Positions 13,577-62,043 of a DNA stretch of 64,000 nt are shown here, piece by piece. This stretch comes from Sphagnum magellanicum. Its lineage: Eukaryota; Streptophyta; Sphagnopsida; Sphagnales; Sphagnaceae. Each line of letters opens with the position of its first letter. Positions within the stretch are counted from its first letter, which is position 1. Position numbers and translations under genes: made by a program. The notes beneath the pieces were generated by a model that saw only the letters and a program-made list of their open reading frames with translations, ran no database searches and was not told where the DNA came from. The stretch covers positions 20,687,666 through 20,751,665 of the forward strand of contig CM038919.1 in NCBI GenBank assembly GCA_021904315.1, written 5' to 3'.

Positions 13577-13866
13577 AAATTCTCTGCAATTTCATATATA
13601 TGTGGTAAAGTCAAATCCTTTCCATATGTTTTGGACATGTGGTTCATTGTACCCATTGACTAGACACTGAGAAGAGTATGTACAGATATTCTCCATCTCT
13701 AGATTATAGGACAAAACTTATGGGGCATGGAGAGGTAGTATGGGAGAAGAGTATTAACAAACATTTCCATCTGTAGATTAAAGGACAAACGTTATGAAGC
13801 ATGGAGGGGTAGTTTGGGGGAAAAGTATTAACAAACATTTCCGTCTCTAGATTGAAGGACAAACCT
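13577..13866. repeat. 290-bp direct repeat, copy A
   Basis: Same length as 15485-15774 and differs from it at only a few positions. Starts AAATTCTCTGCAATTTC and ends GAAGGACAAACCT. It lies in the downstream intron of the RHM relic and overlaps the first 168-bp tandem unit. Confidence 0.85.
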
Positions 13867-14045
13867 AGAGACATTGAGACAAAACTTATGGGGCATGGAG
13901 AGGTAGTATGGGAGAAGAGTATTAACAGACATTTCCATCTGTAGATTAAAGGACAAACGTTATGAAGCATGGAGGGGTAGTTTGGGGGAAAAGTATTAAC
14001 AAACATTTCCGTCTCTAAATTGAAGGACAAATCTAGAGACATTGA
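13710..14045. repeat. Two tandem copies of a 168-bp unit
   Basis: Copies 13710-13877 and 13878-14045 are nearly identical. Each is built of two related half-units of about 75-80 bp starting GACAAAACTTATGGGG and GACAAACGTTATGAAG. The array lies inside the 772-bp intron of the RHM relic. An open frame across it only mirrors the repeats. Confidence 0.85.
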
Positions 14046-15484: not shown

Positions 15485-15931
<447 letters not shown>

Positions 15932-17795: not shown

Positions 17796-19198
17796 TCATT
17801 CAAGGCCAACTTCATCATCACCAGATGACCTTTGAAGCTCTTCAGCAGCTAAAATTGCATAAGTTCCAATCAATTCAATTGCACCAACAAGTGCCATGTT
17901 CCTTGGTACCTCTGGAAATTCTAGATGCACATCTACTCTAATCAAGTTGTCTAGCATGGTAACTTCATCACTATCAGATATTAAGATGCGTTTGGACCTT
18001 GGTTCTTTGTGGAGGACAACCTTCCATCCTGGCATGTTAGGGTCATCTGCATAAAAAACCTGCTGCACCTGGGCTGGAAATACATAAGGTTCATCAACCC
18101 ATGCTTTCAATTGTTGAAAATTTACCAACAAAAACCCATCATCATTGCGCTTATATGTGGCATTTCCCCATCTGTCCAATCCATTTCTTACCCAATCACA
18201 TTTGAACAATATTACTGGTTGGGATATAGGGCCATAGTCTAGCAAAATTATGTCCTTCAATATCCCCACACATTGAAGTGCCCCAAGTCTCGTACCCTTT
18301 GTTGACTGCTGCTCTTGATGGAAAACTGATGCAACTCCAAAATCGTATGTGGCACATGTGTTGCCATAGGTATCTATAAAAAATATGTAATGATTTCCAT
18401 ATGCCTTCATTTTTGTGTACCTTGAAGCAAAAAGGGATGGCAAAACTGATAGATGGAGTGCATCTCGGTCTTCAAGCACACCCCCTTGTGCGATATGGCT
18501 CCAAATTGCTTCACGCACCCAACTTGCCAAGTTTTGCACCTCTTGGAGCTCTGGTGGAAACTCCACATGCCTGCTTGTTGTTCTATGCCCCCTCCACCAT
18601 TGTGCCTCAAATTCTATTCTTAACTGCCTTATCCGAATTGTTTCTTGCTCATACATGCTGCACCCCCAATAGCCAAGCCCCACATTAAGTTTATTATTTT
18701 TTGCTAGTTGTTCAACAAGAAAGTAACTTACCCATGCATCTATGACCTCTTTACAATTTTCCAATAAGGGTTTAAGGGGTTAAGGGTTGTGTACCGAACC
18801 CATGGTGCTAAACATGCCACATTTGTGATAACATATTGATGTGCCACATCTCGTGTTACAGGGTCTAGAGTCAACTTTGTGGTAGCCCCTTCCACAACTT
18901 CACCATAAACCCCCTCCTCTTCATTTGCATCCCAAATTCTAGGTTGAACATGGTGGAAATCTTGTAGATATTTGGTGACAAACCCAATTGTCTCGTCCAA
19001 AATGTAACCTTCTGCCATGGAAGCCTCTGGCCTTGACCTATTACAAACATAACCTTTGAAAACCTTCATGGCCCGTTCTATTGGGTACATCCAATGAATA
19101 TGAACCAGGCCACAAATGTCTAGTTCTTTTACAATGTGCAATGTTAAATGTGACATCACATCAAAAAATGCTCCCAATGTTCTACGGTTGATTAGCAA
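17796..19198 (-). pseudogene. CACTA (En/Spm-type) transposase fragment, DUF4218 and DUF4216 regions
   Basis: The 18740-19198 frame matches the DUF4218 pattern of plant CACTA transposases: LVHIHWMYPIERAMKVFKGY, NRSRPEASMAEGYI and DETIGFVTKYL. The 17796-18764 frame continues into the C-terminal region: FPPELQEVQNLASW, then PVILFKCDWVRNGLDRWG and KAWVDEPYVFPAQVQQVFY, typical of DUF4216. The two are in different frames and overlap at 18740-18764, so a one-base shift separates them. The N-terminal catalytic part is missing; the reading breaks at 19198, where hAT-like coding sequence on the other strand begins. Long open stretches without stops suggest a fairly young copy. It is an immobile fragment. 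Confidence 0.8.
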
Positions 19199-26580: not shown

Positions 26581-26976
26581 TTGTTGTAACCATTTAGTTG
26601 TACACCTAAGGTTTATTGGAGTCTATTTCCTCAAAGTAAAGCATGCAAAATAATAAGTACTTGGGCATGATTCTTTGATCCCATGAAGAAAGAAGAATCC
26701 CCACCAAAAATAATAGTAATGATAAAATGAAAGAGAAAGCAATCCAGGTCCCAAGAAAACCAACAAGAGAGAAAAGAAAAGGGGGACGCACAATGGGACA
26801 CGATTTCAGGTCTCAAGAAGAAAAAACAAAAAAACCTGATATGGAAAAGGACATGGTCTTGGGACATCGGAACAAGGTGGCGGAGGGGTTTCAGGTTAGG
26901 GCAATTCAGGTGTTGATAAGATTAGGCCTTGAAGTTGGGATGTGGGGGAGAGAGGCAGAAGAAGAGAGGACGAAGA

Positions 26977-27075
26977 GCTTCTCTCCTCCGCCATCGCTCG
27001 TACCACTCCTCCCTCTCTCTTGTCTCGTTCTCCTTCTGCTTTTTCCTTCCACTAGTGCCTGTGAGATTGTCAGCT
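26977..27075 (+). promoter_or_regulatory. Pyrimidine-rich leader of eEF1B
   Basis: A long C/T-rich tract ends about 20 bp before the ATG. Such leaders are common in mRNAs of the translation machinery. The tract followed by CCACTAG also looks like a splice acceptor, so a leader intron is possible. Confidence 0.4.
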
Positions 27076-27798
27076 ATGGCCATTACCTTCAAGGATTTTG
27101 CCACTGAGGAAGGATTACAGCAGCTGGATGAGTTCGTGAGCAGTCGCGTCTTTATCTCTGGACATCAAGGCTCCCTGGACGACCTTGCAGTTTTTGGCGC
27201 TCTCTCCACTGCTCCGGGCACCGATTTTCCTCATGCCTCTAGCTGGTATTCTAAGGTGAGCCACTCTCTGGGGTCTAGGTTTCCTGGTGAAGGTGTTGGT
27301 GTGCACATTGGCGTTGGTGGCTCTGCAGTGGCCGGTCCAGAAGTGCCGGAAGTTGCTCAGCTCCTCCCCGTTACTGCTGCTGAGGAGAAGGAGAAGGAGA
27401 AAGAGGAGGAGGATGATGATGATGATGACCTAGATCTGTTTGGAGAGGAGACAGAGGAGGAGAAGGCAGCCGCCGCTCAGCGAGAGGCGGCCAAGAAGGC
27501 GTCTGGGAAGAAAGCCGTTGTAGGGAAATCTTCCGTGTTGATGGACGTGAAACCCTGGGACGATGAGACGGACATGAAGAAGCTGGAGGAGCATGTGCGC
27601 GGAATTCAAATGGACGGTCTGTTTTGGGGAGCGTCCAAGCTTGTGCCTGTCGGCTATGGCATCAAGAAGCTTCAAATCATGATGACCATTGAAGATGACA
27701 AGGTTTCGCCTGATAACTTGATCGAGGATTATCTCTCAGTTGAACCTGCCAGTGACTACATCCAGAGTTGTGACATCGTTGCATTCAACAAGATATAA
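27076..27798 (+). CDS. EF1B: Translation elongation factor 1B, beta/delta-type guanine-exchange subunit
   Basis: The 240-residue protein catalyses GDP-GTP exchange on eEF1A in the cytosol. The start at 27076 opens [14 protein letters not shown]; the frame is open upstream but lacks an ATG start there. Residues 1-60 form the N-terminal part with [14 protein letters not shown]. Residues 102-129 are an acidic hinge leading to [12 protein letters not shown], a family hallmark. Residues 153-240 are the exchange domain: [14 protein letters not shown], then [20 protein letters not shown] and the terminal DIVAFNKI. Length fits plant eEF1B subunits (about 225-235) with a slightly longer middle. There is no intron, whereas known seed-plant homologues have several, so it may be a retrocopy or a lineage that lost introns. 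No lesion is seen and constraint looks strong, so it is probably functional. Confidence 0.93.
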
Positions 27799-28788
27799 CG
27801 ATGCAATCGAGTCTTGTGTTTTTGCAGCAGGTTTTAGGGTTTGGAAAGCTCTTCTTCAAAGTGAGCTCTAGCCTCAGGAATCCAGAGGAATGACCAAACT
27901 GCCTTCAATTTTTATTCTGAGTGTTCATATATACAGGCTACAGTGAACAGGACTTGAACCACATTTTTGTCACAGTCACAGTCATGGGAGCATACCACTG
28001 CTCTTTGTGATTTTCAAAGAAGTTGATGGTCAGACACTTTGAGAGGGGCTTTCTGGGAATGTTATTACTTCACTCTTTGTTATGTTGCCTTTGAATTTGT
28101 TTATTGAGCTCTGACTTATAGTCTTGCTGGTCTGCTGCCTGGTGGAGAAGGCACTCATGCAAGCATTTGAATGTTGGGATTCTATTCTAGAGGTGGACCT
28201 AATCTGCTGTATCAAGAATGTTAGGATTATGTTCTAGAGGTGGATGTAACTAGTGATCATAACCACCTGTGCAGATATTTTAGGTCTTAAGTTTTGCTGA
28301 CATGGGAAATTGGGGTTCATGAGTTGGCAGACCATGGACAAGACTATGTGGTTCAGTTTCCAGAGGATTAGGGCTGAGATCATTTTCCTTTGCTTTCAAT
28401 TTTGGTTGGTGCTGGCTACGGCTGTTTTCAATTTGGTTCATGAGAGCTGTAGTATTTGAAGACCACCTCATATGCCCTGTGGTTGTGCTTTAGAATGTTG
28501 AGGGACATTGGTGTGGGGAACTGGGTCCACATGTATGAGGAATAGGGTGATTTTCTCTTATCTTCAAGCCCTGATTTAGATCATTAGTATGAAATGCAGC
28601 AGCAGGCATCTTGTGAATCAGCAGAAAACCATGAATGTGCACAATACAAATGCATCTCTATTTTATTGACTGCAAAAGTCACTTTAAATTCACAAATGGG
28701 AGGGGACATAAGACAAGATATAGGCAAAGTTGAATTGCACAGACAAAAACCAGAATCTCAGCAATAGATAGAATTGTCCATGATATTT
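27799..28788. other. 3' flank of eEF1B
   Basis: Presumably contains the 3' untranslated region. No AATAAA signal or poly(A) tract stands out after the stop, so a retrocopy tail is not visible. No other gene. Confidence 0.4.
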
Positions 28789-30120
28789 CACAATCACAAG
28801 CAATCTTAAGGTTGTTTCACAAGTGCTCCACAATCACAAGCAATCTGAAGTTAGTTCACAAGAGCTTCAAAGTTGCAGAGGCTTCAGATTTGATCTCTTG
28901 GCTGGATTTCTTATTAGACAATTTGTTTCTTTGTTTTGGTCAGGGTGTTTATAGACAATGCATTGGTATCCCCATGGGTACAAATTGTGCGGTCTATTTG
29001 GCTAATTTCTATCTCTTCACCTATGAGTTTGATTTCATTAAGCGTCTCTTGAGAGTAACACTTGTCCTGTTGTGCTTCGTAGCTTGTCCTTGGTTCGTAG
29101 GGTTGTGGATGATCTTTTTGTTCCTAATTTACCAGATTTTGAGAACTTCATGTACCTTAACCAAGACTCTTTTGGTAGCGGCATATACCCAAAAACCTCT
29201 TGCAAGTTGACTTGTACATCTAAAGGCTTCTCTTGTAATTTCTTGGATCTAACTGTGAGCCAGAGTCCTCAAGGTTTATCCTGTGACATTTTTGACAAAC
29301 GCTCTCAACCAGAGTATGCAGGTATTGAAATGATTAGAATGCCTCATGTTCATTCCAATATCTCAATGACTGCGAAGCTAGGGGTTATCAATAGTCAATT
29401 TTACAGATTCGACTTTGTAGTTGTGAGAAGTTTTTTGTCTTCCAGATGGTCAGTCTTATTGTCTTTCTGAAGGCAAAAGGCTACCCTTTTAAAGTTCTTC
29501 TTAAGAGAACTAGAGGGTTGGTTCTTAAAGAAAAATTCCTGTTTGGAATATCCGCTTTTGGCATTTTCAGAATGATTTTGCTTCGGGTCATGTAAGTGGG
29601 GAGCTTCCTGTAAGCCCACTTGTTCTTAGTCCTTCCCTGTTCTTTTCCCTTTCTGTCTTTCTTTGTTTCTTTGTCTAGTCTTTGTTGTGGGGTCTGTTGC
29701 TAGCCAGTAGTATGGCTGAGTCTTCCCGTTGCTTCCGGAATTGCAGCAGAAACTCAGTTCGCAGGATGGTGCTTGTCACTGGCCTTTACCCACTGTAGGG
29801 AGCTGATGAAGTCAGTGGGGAAGCTGTGATAGTTAAGTCACTGTCATACACACTGCTGTTGAACAGGTGTGAGACTGGCACTTTTGTTCATACCACTAAT
29901 GTGTTTTTTGTTTTTTGTTTTGTTTTTTGTCTCCCCTTGTTTGGTTCTTTCTGTGACTTCCTGAGGAAGTGTTAGCCTTGCTGTTTCTTCTTCATCGTGA
30001 GAACGGAGATTTCTCTATTCTTATGAAAGATATTAGTTCACAAGAGCTTCACAATTACAATCAATCTGAAGTTAGTTTCACAAGTACTTTGCAAACACAA
30101 GCATGCAATCTGAAGGTTCA
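28789..30120. repeat. Tandem array of a 40-bp unit, split by the Penelope-like insertion
   Basis: Units beginning CACAATCACAAGCAATCT lie at 28789 and 28829. The pattern resumes at 30050 with CACAATTACAATCAATCTG and continues to about 30120. Removing 28870-30032 plus one 19-bp repeat restores an unbroken array of about four units. Confidence 0.75.
28870..30032 (+). mobile_element. 5'-truncated Penelope-like element with reverse transcriptase remnant
   Basis: A 1,163-bp insertion flanked by a perfect 19-bp direct repeat (28851-28869 and 30033-30051; TTAGTTCACAAGAGCTTCA). It encodes reverse-transcriptase motifs in three frames: YRQCIGIPMGTNCAVYLANF about 28955-29015, then the active-site region RRVVDDLF after a shift near 29070, then CNFLDLTVSQ, CDIFDKRSQPEYAG and HVHSNISM, and after another shift near 29405 a thumb-like LKAKGYPFKVLLK. 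The IPMGTNCA motif and the order of blocks fit Penelope-like elements rather than LTR or LINE reverse transcriptases. The palm's first aspartate region and any GIY-YIG endonuclease are absent. Truncation at the upstream end fits target-primed insertion. Dead copy. Confidence 0.75.
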
Positions 30121-30619
30121 AAGGCGTTTTATAAACACGACCAAGAAGCAATCCAGCAAGAAGAGCAAGAGAGAAGAAGCTCACATGTTCAAAAAATTTA
30201 GAGACTGAATTCTGTTTCCATATCTACACAATCAGAAGCAACAAAATGTTTTTTAAGTTCATCTACCTCTCTTTCCCTCTCTGTGTCTCTCACTCTCTCT
30301 CTTCGTCTCTCTCGGAGAGCATGGCAACAAATTCCTCTTGATCTGAAACAAGTGCTGCGTATTTCTTTCCGGTTGTTGTGCATGGCCTGTTGGTCACTGC
30401 AGAGATGTTGGAAGGAAGTTTTTGCAACTGGCAACTGCAGAAGATAATGTGGTAAGAAGTTTGTGAGAGTTTTTGAAGCTTGTGGTGAGCTCCTGCCGCT
30501 TCTTGGACGAAGGGGAAAAAATGTAGAGATGGTGAGGAGGGTGTGAATCGATAGATAGGCCTGAAGAGATTTTGATGAGTATGAGGAAAGAAAGAAAGAT
30601 CTGCAGAAAGATCTGCAGG
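30052..30619. other. 3' flank of the coiled-coil gene
   Basis: The part next to 30620 should hold the minus-strand gene's 3' untranslated region. A CT-rich tract (CTCTCTCACTCTCTCTCTTC type) lies at about 30268-30315. No other gene. Confidence 0.4.
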
Positions 30620-31966
30620 CTACCATTTGAAGGAGCCACCGAAGTGCCGGAGTGGGTTTTGGAGTCTTTTCACCTTCATGAGAGCTTCTTCGTGTTGTGC
30701 TTCCGTCTCCGCAAGTCGAATGCTCATGACGAAGAAGCGATCACGAATGTCCTGCAGCTCCGAGTCTTGTTTCTTGAGCTGCAATTTGAGCTGCACCACT
30801 TGGTCGTCATGGGTAACTGCCGCTTGCACATTCTCTTGCTCCGCGAAGGCGGTATGGAGCTGCGATTTGTACAGATTGTTCACTTCTACAGCCTCTGCCA
30901 ATTCGGTTTCCAACGAGACTATCCTCTCTAGCAGCATCTTGCAGCAGCAGCTCCCTCCTCCCACCACCGCCTCGGCGCCCGTCTCGGAGTTCTGATCCGG
31001 CAAGAGTCTCCTCGTGTCCAGCTGCAATTGCTCGTTGAGCTCTTGCAGATGCTGAACCTCTTTCTGTAACATGTCCTTGGTGCTCAGCTGGAATTGAAGC
31101 TCTCTCTCTCGCTGTGCCAACAGTGTGTTTTGCTTCTGGAGTCGAGTAAGCTCCATCTGCAGTTGTTCCATTCCTGAGTTCTCGCCGCCGGCTAGAAGCT
31201 GCTCGTTTGCAAGCTCTAAGCACTCGATTTTGTCGAGTAGATTGTTCTCCATCTCCTGAAATTCCTGCTTCATGGCCTCCACCTCCATAGCTTTCGCCTT
31301 CAAAGCTGCCTCCAGGAACTTGTTCTTCTCCCGCATGTCCACCAGTTCCTGCAACCCGCAGGAGGAGCTGGAAAGACTAGCAGCTGGGGATATGGGTCCG
31401 ACAAAGCTCGGCGACCTGGTGACCAGAATAGAGCCACTGTTGTTGCAGCAGCTGTGCAGGCGCATCATCCTTCCAGCTCCAGCTTGTCTCTCACGACCCA
31501 GCAGCTTGTCACCGACTTCCGGAAGCTCTGATTTCTTTTCTCCGCTGCCTGCAAGAGGTGGCTTCTTGGCCGAAGAACACATGAGCGCATCCTTGCAGAT
31601 ATCGAGCGCCTCAACTGCAACGCTAGTCATCTTCAAGCTCGCCGTCTGCTGATCTTCTTCTTCCTCCTCTTCTTCTTGCTCGGGAATTCGTCTATGCTTC
31701 TGCCAAGTAACACGCTTGATTTCAGACACCGGATCGACTCCATCTACTGGCAGCTCCTCCGCAGCACCACGATGCTCATGATCAGCCTCTAGATCAACAG
31801 GCTTCTCCTCCTCCGGAAACTCATAGATATCTGCAGAATCTCTGATCTTCTCCAAGCTCTCGACTTCCTTTAATGTTCCAGGTACTCCGCCGAGCTTTTC
31901 AGGGAACGGCTCGAAACCCGCCGATGCAGCAGCAGCAGCAGGTGGGCGCTCCTCCAAAGTCCCCAT
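30620..31966 (-). CDS. Single-exon coiled-coil protein, 448 residues
   Basis: The ATG at 31966 (MGTLEERP) opens a 448-codon frame without intron, ending TAG at 30620. Residues 1-200 are low-complexity: alanine run, acidic patches, a glutamate run at about 97-105, and a Ser/Cys-rich stretch. From about 205 to 435 there is a long heptad-rich coiled coil (LQELVDMREKNKFLEAALKA onward) with Gln/Leu/Glu-rich repeats. The C-terminal block (about 405-440, with DIRDRFFVMSIRLAETEAQ) resembles the end of plant myosin-heavy-chain-like coiled-coil proteins, but the NT-C2 domain of that family is not present. The last residues are PLRHFGGSFKW. Expected to be a scaffold or cytoskeleton-linked protein; the function is not known. 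No lesion. The leader is CT-rich, as in expressed plant genes. Confidence 0.72.
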   Translation of the reverse strand: MGTLEERPPAAAAASAGFEPFPEKLGGVPGTLKEVESLEKIRDSADIYEFPEEEKPVDLEADHEHRGAAEELPVDGVDPVSEIKRVTWQKHRRIPEQEEEEEEEDQQTASLKMTSVAVEALDICKDALMCSSAKKPPLAGSGEKKSELPEVGDKLLGRERQAGAGRMMRLHSCCNNSGSILVTRSPSFVGPISPAASLSSSSCGLQELVDMREKNKFLEAALKAKAMEVEAMKQEFQEMENNLLDKIECLELANEQLLAGGENSGMEQLQMELTRLQKQNTLLAQRERELQFQLSTKDMLQKEVQHLQELNEQLQLDTRRLLPDQNSETGAEAVVGGGSCCCKMLLERIVSLETELAEAVEVNNLYKSQLHTAFAEQENVQAAVTHDDQVVQLKLQLKKQDSELQDIRDRFFVMSIRLAETEAQHEEALMKVKRLQNPLRHFGGSFKW

Positions 31967-59845: not shown

Positions 59846-60295
59846 GAAAAAACTCCCATTGGCAAAGAAAGCAACCAAACATCTTGGGGTTGAGGGTGTT
59901 GGGTGTTGTTAGGGTTTTGAATAAGAAAAAACTCACATTGGCAAAGCAGCCAAAGATCTTAGGGTTTTGGGTGTTGTTAGGGTTTTGAATAAGAAAAAAA
60001 CTCCCATTGGCAAAGAAAGCAACCAAACATCTTGAGGTTGAGGGTGTTGGGTGTTGTTAGGGTTTTGAATAAGAAAAAACTCACATTGGCAAAGCAGCCA
60101 AAGATCTTAGGGTTTTGGGTGTTGTTAGCGTTTTGAATAAGAAAAAAACTCCCATTGGCAAAGCAGCACCAAAGATCTTAGGGCTTAGGGTTTTGGGTGT
60201 TGTTAGGGTTTTTGAATAAGAAAAAAAACTCCCATTGGCAAAGCAGCCAAAGATCTTAGGGTTTAGGGTGTTGTTAGGGTTTTTGAATTAAGAAA
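59846..60295. repeat. Six-unit tandem array with alternating 79- and 69-bp spacing
   Basis: ACTC(C/A)CATTGGCAAAG occurs at 59852, 59931, 60000, 60079, 60148 and 60228, giving spacings 79, 69, 79, 69 and 80. The 148-bp pair is therefore the repeated unit. Each unit carries GTGTTGTTAGGGTTTTGAAT, with AGGGTT motifs. Confidence 0.85.
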
Positions 60296-60398
60296 AGAAA
60301 AAAATTAGCTAGTGTCTTATTTTCTTCACCTTCATACTTTTTACCTCAATATTTTTACCCAAGTGACAAAAAATTTCTGCTATTTCATGTCTCTGCAG

Positions 60399-61439: not shown

Positions 61440-61740
61440 AGGCCTCCTTTTTACGTAAGCATCTAATTTTGTATGTAAAACAAGGATAGTAGTGGTAGTA
61501 ACATGAAGCAATTTGTTTGCAAAAAACCCTAAACCCTTCACATGAGACGGAAGAAGGAAAACTTCCACATTTGGTAGTGAAATGATCATGAGAAAAAAAT
61601 TTCACTTGAAGCAAGCCGTAATAGCTATGTACTTGTTGGTAATCCCACCATTGGCCCACCACCTCGGAAAAACCCCTTGTGTATTTGATGGCCTATTTGT
61701 TGTGGGTTCCGTTCAATATGTTGGTACTACTACTAGCACA

Positions 61741-62043
61741 TGTAATTCTTAGGGTATGGTTTTGAATAGCGTTTAGGGTTTTACACCTTAGACTCTAAAC
61801 CCTAAACCCTAAAGCACATCTATAAGTACTTAGATAGATGTAAAAGATTTTTTGTCTACTTGCTTGATACAAAGTTCAAAGTTTCATTTGCATGTAATTC
61901 TTAGGGTATGGTTTTGAATAGTGTTTAGGTTTTAGACTTTAGACTCTAAACCCTAAACCCTAAAGCACATCTATAAGTGCTTAGATCGATGTAAAGGATT
62001 TTTTGTATACTTGGTTGGTACAAAGTTCAAAGTTTCCTTTGAT
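61741..62043. repeat. Tandem duplication of 152 bp containing telomere-like motifs
   Basis: Copies start TGTAATTCTTAGGGTATGGT at 61741 and 61893. Both contain CTCTAAACCCTAAACCCTAA followed by GCACATCTATAAGT. They differ at about ten positions. Confidence 0.85.

Follow-up and report, generated by a model that had tools for sequence, protein, structure and literature searches.

Insertion site and target duplication

The DNA analysed here is a 64-kb stretch of a moss genome (the window; C13:20687666-20751665 in the own-genome assembly searched, which comprises 439 Mb in 31 contigs). A 290-aa open frame on the plus strand (26926-27795) contains an EF-1 guanine nucleotide exchange domain (E 4.8e-33), and this eEF1B-type gene ends ~1.07 kb upstream of a retrotransposon copy on the same strand (Table 1). 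The copy is bounded by two exact occurrences of the 19-mer TTAGTTCACAAGAGCTTCA, which are the only two in the 64-kb window; the other strand of the window has none. Within the neighbouring intervals 28400-28850 and 30052-30500, the next-best matches are 15/19 at 28812, itself an adjacent array unit, and 14/19 at 28433. Because the nearest array unit reaches only 15/19, the perfect identity of the two 19-mers goes beyond the ordinary likeness of array units. Joined without the insert, the flanks form a 40-bp tandem array of 3.4 units (82% matches, TRF score 175), which makes the rejoined target a minisatellite of ~135 bp. The initial annotation of this DNA had described a perfect 19-bp duplication around 1,163 bp whose removal restores a 40-bp tandem array, and both observations are borne out; its own proviso, that the repeats might be mere neighbours in the array, was checked and does not apply. 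"Satellite", its word for the target, is too strong for an array of only ~135 bp.

Table 1. Features of the insertion locus, in window coordinates
Feature	Position	Strand	Details
Left part of the 40-bp minisatellite (insertion target)	28787..28869	.	
Left copy of the 19-bp target-site duplication	28851..28869	+	exact repeat
Insert: 5′-truncated, frameshifted Penelope-like retrotransposon copy (1,163 bp)	28870..30032	+	
IPMGTNCA motif of reverse transcriptase	28968..28990	+	relative's motif aligned with the animal fragment taken as Penelope-like
142-aa open stretch: RRVVDDLF (catalytic DD) and downstream reverse transcriptase region	29042..29467	+	frame differs from that of IPMGTNCA
3′ non-coding region of the element	29593..30032	+	ends at the fixed 3′ end, ...TTATGAAAGATA
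Predicted 3′-terminal RNA stem-loop	29995..30026	+	z -2.98 (29991-30032), -3.66 (29951-30032)
Right copy of the 19-bp target-site duplication	30033..30051	+	exact repeat
Right part of the 40-bp minisatellite	30052..30103	.	

The IPMGTNCA motif lies close to the 5′ end of the window copy and arose in 0/100 shuffled sequences. Compared by tblastn with the 727-aa frame of a longer relative (L010), the window copy matches residues 476-542, 545-707 and 666-727. These pieces fall in different frames, and the window copy is therefore a 5′-truncated, frameshifted remnant; judged from its reading frames, it is a dead fragment. The insert had been annotated as encoding an IPMGTNCA-type reverse transcriptase (RT): the motif is present, and intact coding is not.

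A multicopy family with a fixed 3′ end

The DNA search of the genome scored 40 of 952 candidates, the window copy among them, so that the family has at least 40 copies and all counts are lower bounds. Every one of the 40 scored matches reaches position 1161 or 1162 of the 1162 query positions. Flanks were examined for these 40 copies, that is, for 39 loci and the window copy. Family homology ends 3′ at ...TTATGAAAGAT(A), and the sequence beyond this point varies by eye from copy to copy. GAAAGAT is found at the 3′ end in 37 of the 39 loci and is changed by one base in L044 (GGAAGAT) and L012 (GAAAGAC), while three copies (L009, L029 and L032) carry extra TA units between the 3′ end and the target-site duplication (TSD). 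At the 5′ side, homology breaks off at a different place in each copy, and the lengths bounded by TSDs range from 976 to 3,551 bp. A non-autonomous family of fixed length was suspected, as 34 of the 40 matches (window counted) spanned the query bar at most one end base, and was rejected because those copies run on upstream by different lengths.

TSDs with a score of at least 11 are present in 27/40 copies and measure 11-21 bp (19 bp in the window copy). Under the same rule, such a score came up in 1/300 control pairs of mismatched flanks, a sample of the 1,560 possible ones. The script returned no TSD score of at least 11 in 13/40 copies; one of these, L047, has a perfect 15-bp TSD farther out, beyond the searched range. 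A copy on contig C16, described below, has a 16-bp TSD with one mismatch when read by eye (8 bp by script). The targets are T-rich, with T at TSD positions 2, 5 and 6 in 21/27, 18/27 and 20/27 copies, counts that are subject to an ambiguity of at least one base in the TSD start of some copies. Over the last 960 bases, the K2P distances among the 40 copies (780 pairs) have a median of 0.048 and a range of 0.0096-0.117, and the nearest relative of the window copy is L009 at 0.017.

Pseudo-LTRs were sought in the longer copies. No match to the 3′ region was found upstream of L054, L055 and L056, which may fall short of full length, and the upstream DNA of the copy read as L047 plus L049, possibly partial as well, showed no match to its own element. 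L035 has, ~100 bp upstream of its 5′ end, a stretch that matches the 3′ region at 74%.

Reverse transcriptase of the family

The motifs FDFSTLYT, IPMGTNCA and DD mark Penelope-like elements (PLEs). Exact matches to IPMGTNC, VDDLFV and FDFSTLYT are found in 28, 32 and 23 of the 40 copies, respectively, and L010 combines a CxC motif (GCAC), FDFSTLYT, IPMGTNCA and RRFVDDLF in its single 727-aa frame. By BLAST, the family RT matches an animal fragment from a mussel-symbiont bin (L052; E 4e-14, 54% identity across 48 aa). The FDFSTLYT motif forms another block that aligns with this fragment in the same order. We take this fragment to be a PLE on the strength of its motif. The RT part had no RT match in Pfam, NCBIfam, PHROGs or PADLOC and nothing of use in the PDB, and protein and motif scans of IMG/VR returned no relatives.

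A motif scan of GTDB gave three records, namely a chance match (L051) and the animal-looking fragments L052 and L053. Both fragments (L052 3246-3582, minus strand; L053 1-85) carry PLE-like RT sequence with IPMGTNCA, and their presence in the mussel-symbiont bin and in a Thioglobus MAG bin, respectively, is probably due to host DNA within these bins.

Endonuclease and domain order in longer copies

A GIY-YIG-like endonuclease (EN) lies ahead of the RT in all three copies that reach far enough 5′ (L037, L047 and L054). Trimmed to the domain, all three have GIY-YIG as their best Pfam match (E 3.2e-4, 4.9e-4 and 7.6e-4), with scores of 20.2-21.4 bits, below the Pfam gathering score of 22.6. The untrimmed frames of L054 (E 0.0076, 17.0 bits) and L047 (E 0.0022, 18.7 bits) also stay under the gathering score, and the untrimmed 518-aa frame of L037 has no Pfam match at E<=1. 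The protein search of the genome scored 61 of 1,319 candidates and yielded at least 71 matches; among the matches listed are older relatives with identities as low as 58 and 48%. The match at C16:6366346-6368274 sits in a 951-aa open frame that has no internal stops and reaches into the RT. L054 is the upstream part of this copy and carries GVIYVIYSV...LYVGQT...ERFQEH; by coordinates, its EN stretch shares a frame with the C16 RT match, the middle stretch being inferred from coordinates only. In L037 and L047, the GIY-YIG open frame lies upstream and is broken before the RT.

The Arg and His that follow YIG (ERFQEH) are conserved in all three EN-bearing copies, and no Cys lies between GIY and YIG in L054 (GVIYVIYSVKNSRMLYVGQT), L037 (GIIYVIYSVDNTIMLYVGQT) or L047 (GVIYVIYSVNNSRMLYVGQT). 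A CxC motif of the HSGCAC type occurs as an exact pattern in 13/40 copies, L047 included, many of the copies being too short; the EN-bearing L037 reads HSGCACFRF. In L010, whose RT frame ends at residue 727, residues 178-727 gave no GIY-YIG match, and beyond residue 727 there is just one sense open stretch of at least 60 aa. No hammerhead ribozyme was matched in Rfam at E<=1 in window positions 28000-31000 or in L010, L037, L047, L048 and L049; the other Rfam rows, SpR10 (E 0.55) and a sodium riboswitch (E 0.5), were set aside as far below their gathering scores.

In L047 (379-720) and L054 (1343-1440), a stop directly before ELANFH precedes the EN frame, and from there to GIY-YIG no ATG occurs. 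The sequence CTAAT...CTGCTCAG ahead of the EN frame of L047 resembles a 3′ splice site, and because of this resemblance one might guess at an upstream exon or a non-AUG start.

A predicted 3′-terminal stem-loop

The 3′ terminus of the element is predicted to form an RNA stem-loop, and 0/200 shuffles fold as well. An alignment of 39/40 copies, from which L012 was omitted because its stretch had slid, showed no significant covariation in the stem-loop, and the last 40 bases show no stronger conservation than the remainder of the 3′-terminal 960. The predicted structure may serve as a recognition site.

Classification and alternative explanations

PLEs of the Naiad and Chlamys type have their domains in the order EN - RT, with an N-terminal GIY-YIG endonuclease and, separating the two domains, a CxC motif; the RT of N-terminal-EN PLEs contains an insertion-in-fingers domain. 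To our knowledge, N-terminal-EN PLEs have no canonical hammerhead ribozyme. Chlamys elements are not known to have the CCHH cysteines in the part of their EN that separates GIY from YIG. Craig et al., in 2021, reportedly described the Chlamys and Naiad PLEs with their permuted domains. In the moss family, the EN stands before the RT with CxC between them, a permuted order that leads away from Penelope/Dryad-type elements. The insert is very probably a dead-on-arrival copy of the PLE kind that has an N-terminal GIY-YIG endonuclease (Naiad/Chlamys type). Two sequence features point tentatively towards Chlamys: no hammerhead was found, and the stretch from GIY to YIG holds no cysteine pair.

The Penelope-like identity proposed in the initial annotation is supported by the RT motifs, by the BLAST match to the animal fragment taken as a PLE (4e-14) and by the linked GIY-YIG. 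Its proposal of a 5′-truncated insertion with a real target duplication likewise agrees with the staggered 5′ ends, the fixed 3′ end and the frequency of TSDs (27/40 vs 1/300). That reading had the class right and missed the N-terminal endonuclease of the parent. A search of the same genome for full-length copies, which it had suggested, returned longer copies with EN ahead of RT, none of them proven to be full-length.

A canonical PLE of the Penelope/Poseidon or Dryad type, with a C-terminal EN as in conifers and perhaps acquired by horizontal transfer, would account for the IPMGTNCA and FDFSTLYT motifs that the family has in common with the animal fragment taken as a PLE. Canonical PLEs also show 5′ truncation and TSDs, according to PMC3846280 and PMC8969392. 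However, the GIY-YIG upstream of the RT in longer copies contradicts the canonical Penelope/Dryad order, and L010 argues against a C-terminal EN, with no GIY-YIG in residues 178-727 and one sense stretch of at least 60 aa beyond; we regard such an origin as improbable. Still less probable is an EN-minus (Athena/Coprina-like) PLE, as in Selaginella and conifers, that heals chromosome ends or breaks. The window copy itself is devoid of an endonuclease, and the distance to a contig end is ~22-80 kb for five protein matches (C1:32338375, C4:79524, C6:46375, C7:20907755 and C17:19805025), but all 40 DNA matches lie at least 0.73 Mb from any contig end, 27/40 copies have TSDs, and the longest copies carry GIY-YIG.

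The monomeric copies, the 5′ truncation, the variable TSDs and the fixed 3′ end also give the family the look of a LINE or other non-LTR element, and the missing RT family match weighs neither for nor against a LINE. The linkage of GIY-YIG to the RT and the presence of IPMGTNCA and FDFSTLYT argue against such an element, which we hold to be very unlikely. That no insertion took place at all, the 19-bp repeats being adjacent array units and the middle an old unrelated sequence, is scarcely credible. The repeats do sit in a 40-bp array, but its nearest unit matches them at only 15/19, and the same 3′ boundary recurs at 39 other loci, 26 of which have a TSD score of at least 11 of their own.

Comparison with known elements and a proposed mechanism

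Read as an N-terminal-EN PLE, the moss family shares with Chlamys and Naiad elements an N-terminal GIY-YIG, CxC, a C-terminal PLE-type RT and the lack of a detected hammerhead. Unlike them, it showed no pseudo-LTR and no tandem or inverted copy in its longest copies, which may be incomplete. The family is dispersed at T-rich sites in a moss, whereas the Chlamys/Naiad elements of spike mosses are in rDNA. In the brown alga Ectocarpus, 27 of 4,782 copies of Chlamys-group PLEs are intact, according to PMC12477816. The moss family resembles these elements in having few intact copies, with none proven intact among the copies read; the host groups differ, and the likeness to the account in PMC12477816 is one of description rather than of sequence comparison.

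Plant PLEs have a patchy distribution and are listed for conifers and Selaginella in PMC9033089. Like the Dryad and EN-minus PLEs covered there, the family is a plant PLE with 5′ truncation. It differs from both in its N-terminal EN, since Dryads belong to the Penelope/Poseidon group with a C-terminal EN and EN-minus elements have no endonuclease (PMC9033089). The target duplications of rotifer PLEs measure 8-10 bp in PMC3846280, against 11-21 bp in the moss family. A literature search that included the available parts of PMC9033089, PMC11630846 and PMC8775202, and that left subscription papers mostly outside, found no moss PLE. The permuted EN-RT arrangement appears to be little documented in land plants, and we make no claim to a first report. 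A moss family of permuted PLEs would go some way towards closing the gap that separates green algae and spike mosses from seed plants, and its fixed 3′ end comes so far without sign of the tandem structure that is usual in PLEs.

The 27 clean junction pairs make the insertion reaction readable. The mechanism that we propose draws on these junctions and on the analogous Poseidon enzyme of Anolis, which cleaves AT-rich DNA and initiates reverse transcription within its RNA (PMC11167929). The family would share with this enzyme an AT-rich target and a fixed RNA start site, whereas Poseidon (PMC11167929) differs in its tandem pLTR, C-terminal EN, hammerhead and initiation inside the ORF start. In the moss family, the element protein would nick T-rich DNA with its endonuclease, and the element's own RNA would be reverse-transcribed in a target-primed reaction from the fixed 3′ end, AAAGAUA followed in some cases by a few more UA, the 3′ stem-loop perhaps being recognised at priming. 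Synthesis that stops early would leave 5′-truncated copies, and a cut in the second strand 11-21 bp away, followed by repair, would produce the target duplication. The window copy would have landed in the short 40-bp array ~1.07 kb 3′ of the eEF1B-type gene and acquired its frameshifts later. More tentatively, and with considerable doubt, we consider that the family might represent a bryophyte lineage of N-terminal-EN PLEs that is sister to Chlamys and Naiads and lacks tandem pseudo-LTRs. Such a lineage would insert as LINE-like monomers, with a fixed, (UA)n-tailed and possibly stem-loop-marked RNA 3′ end and TSDs of 11-21 bp.

Other features of the window

A DUF4216 open frame (E 5.8e-12) lies on the minus strand at 17799-18779; we take this domain to be common in plant CACTA-type transposons. 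The tandem arrays at 13669-14045 and 15577-15782 consist of 74-bp units that look similar by eye, and the former contains two 168-bp units that are 98% alike. In the arrays at 59847-60304 and 61739-62041, the longer units contain AGGGTTT/CCCTAAA pieces of the plant telomere type.
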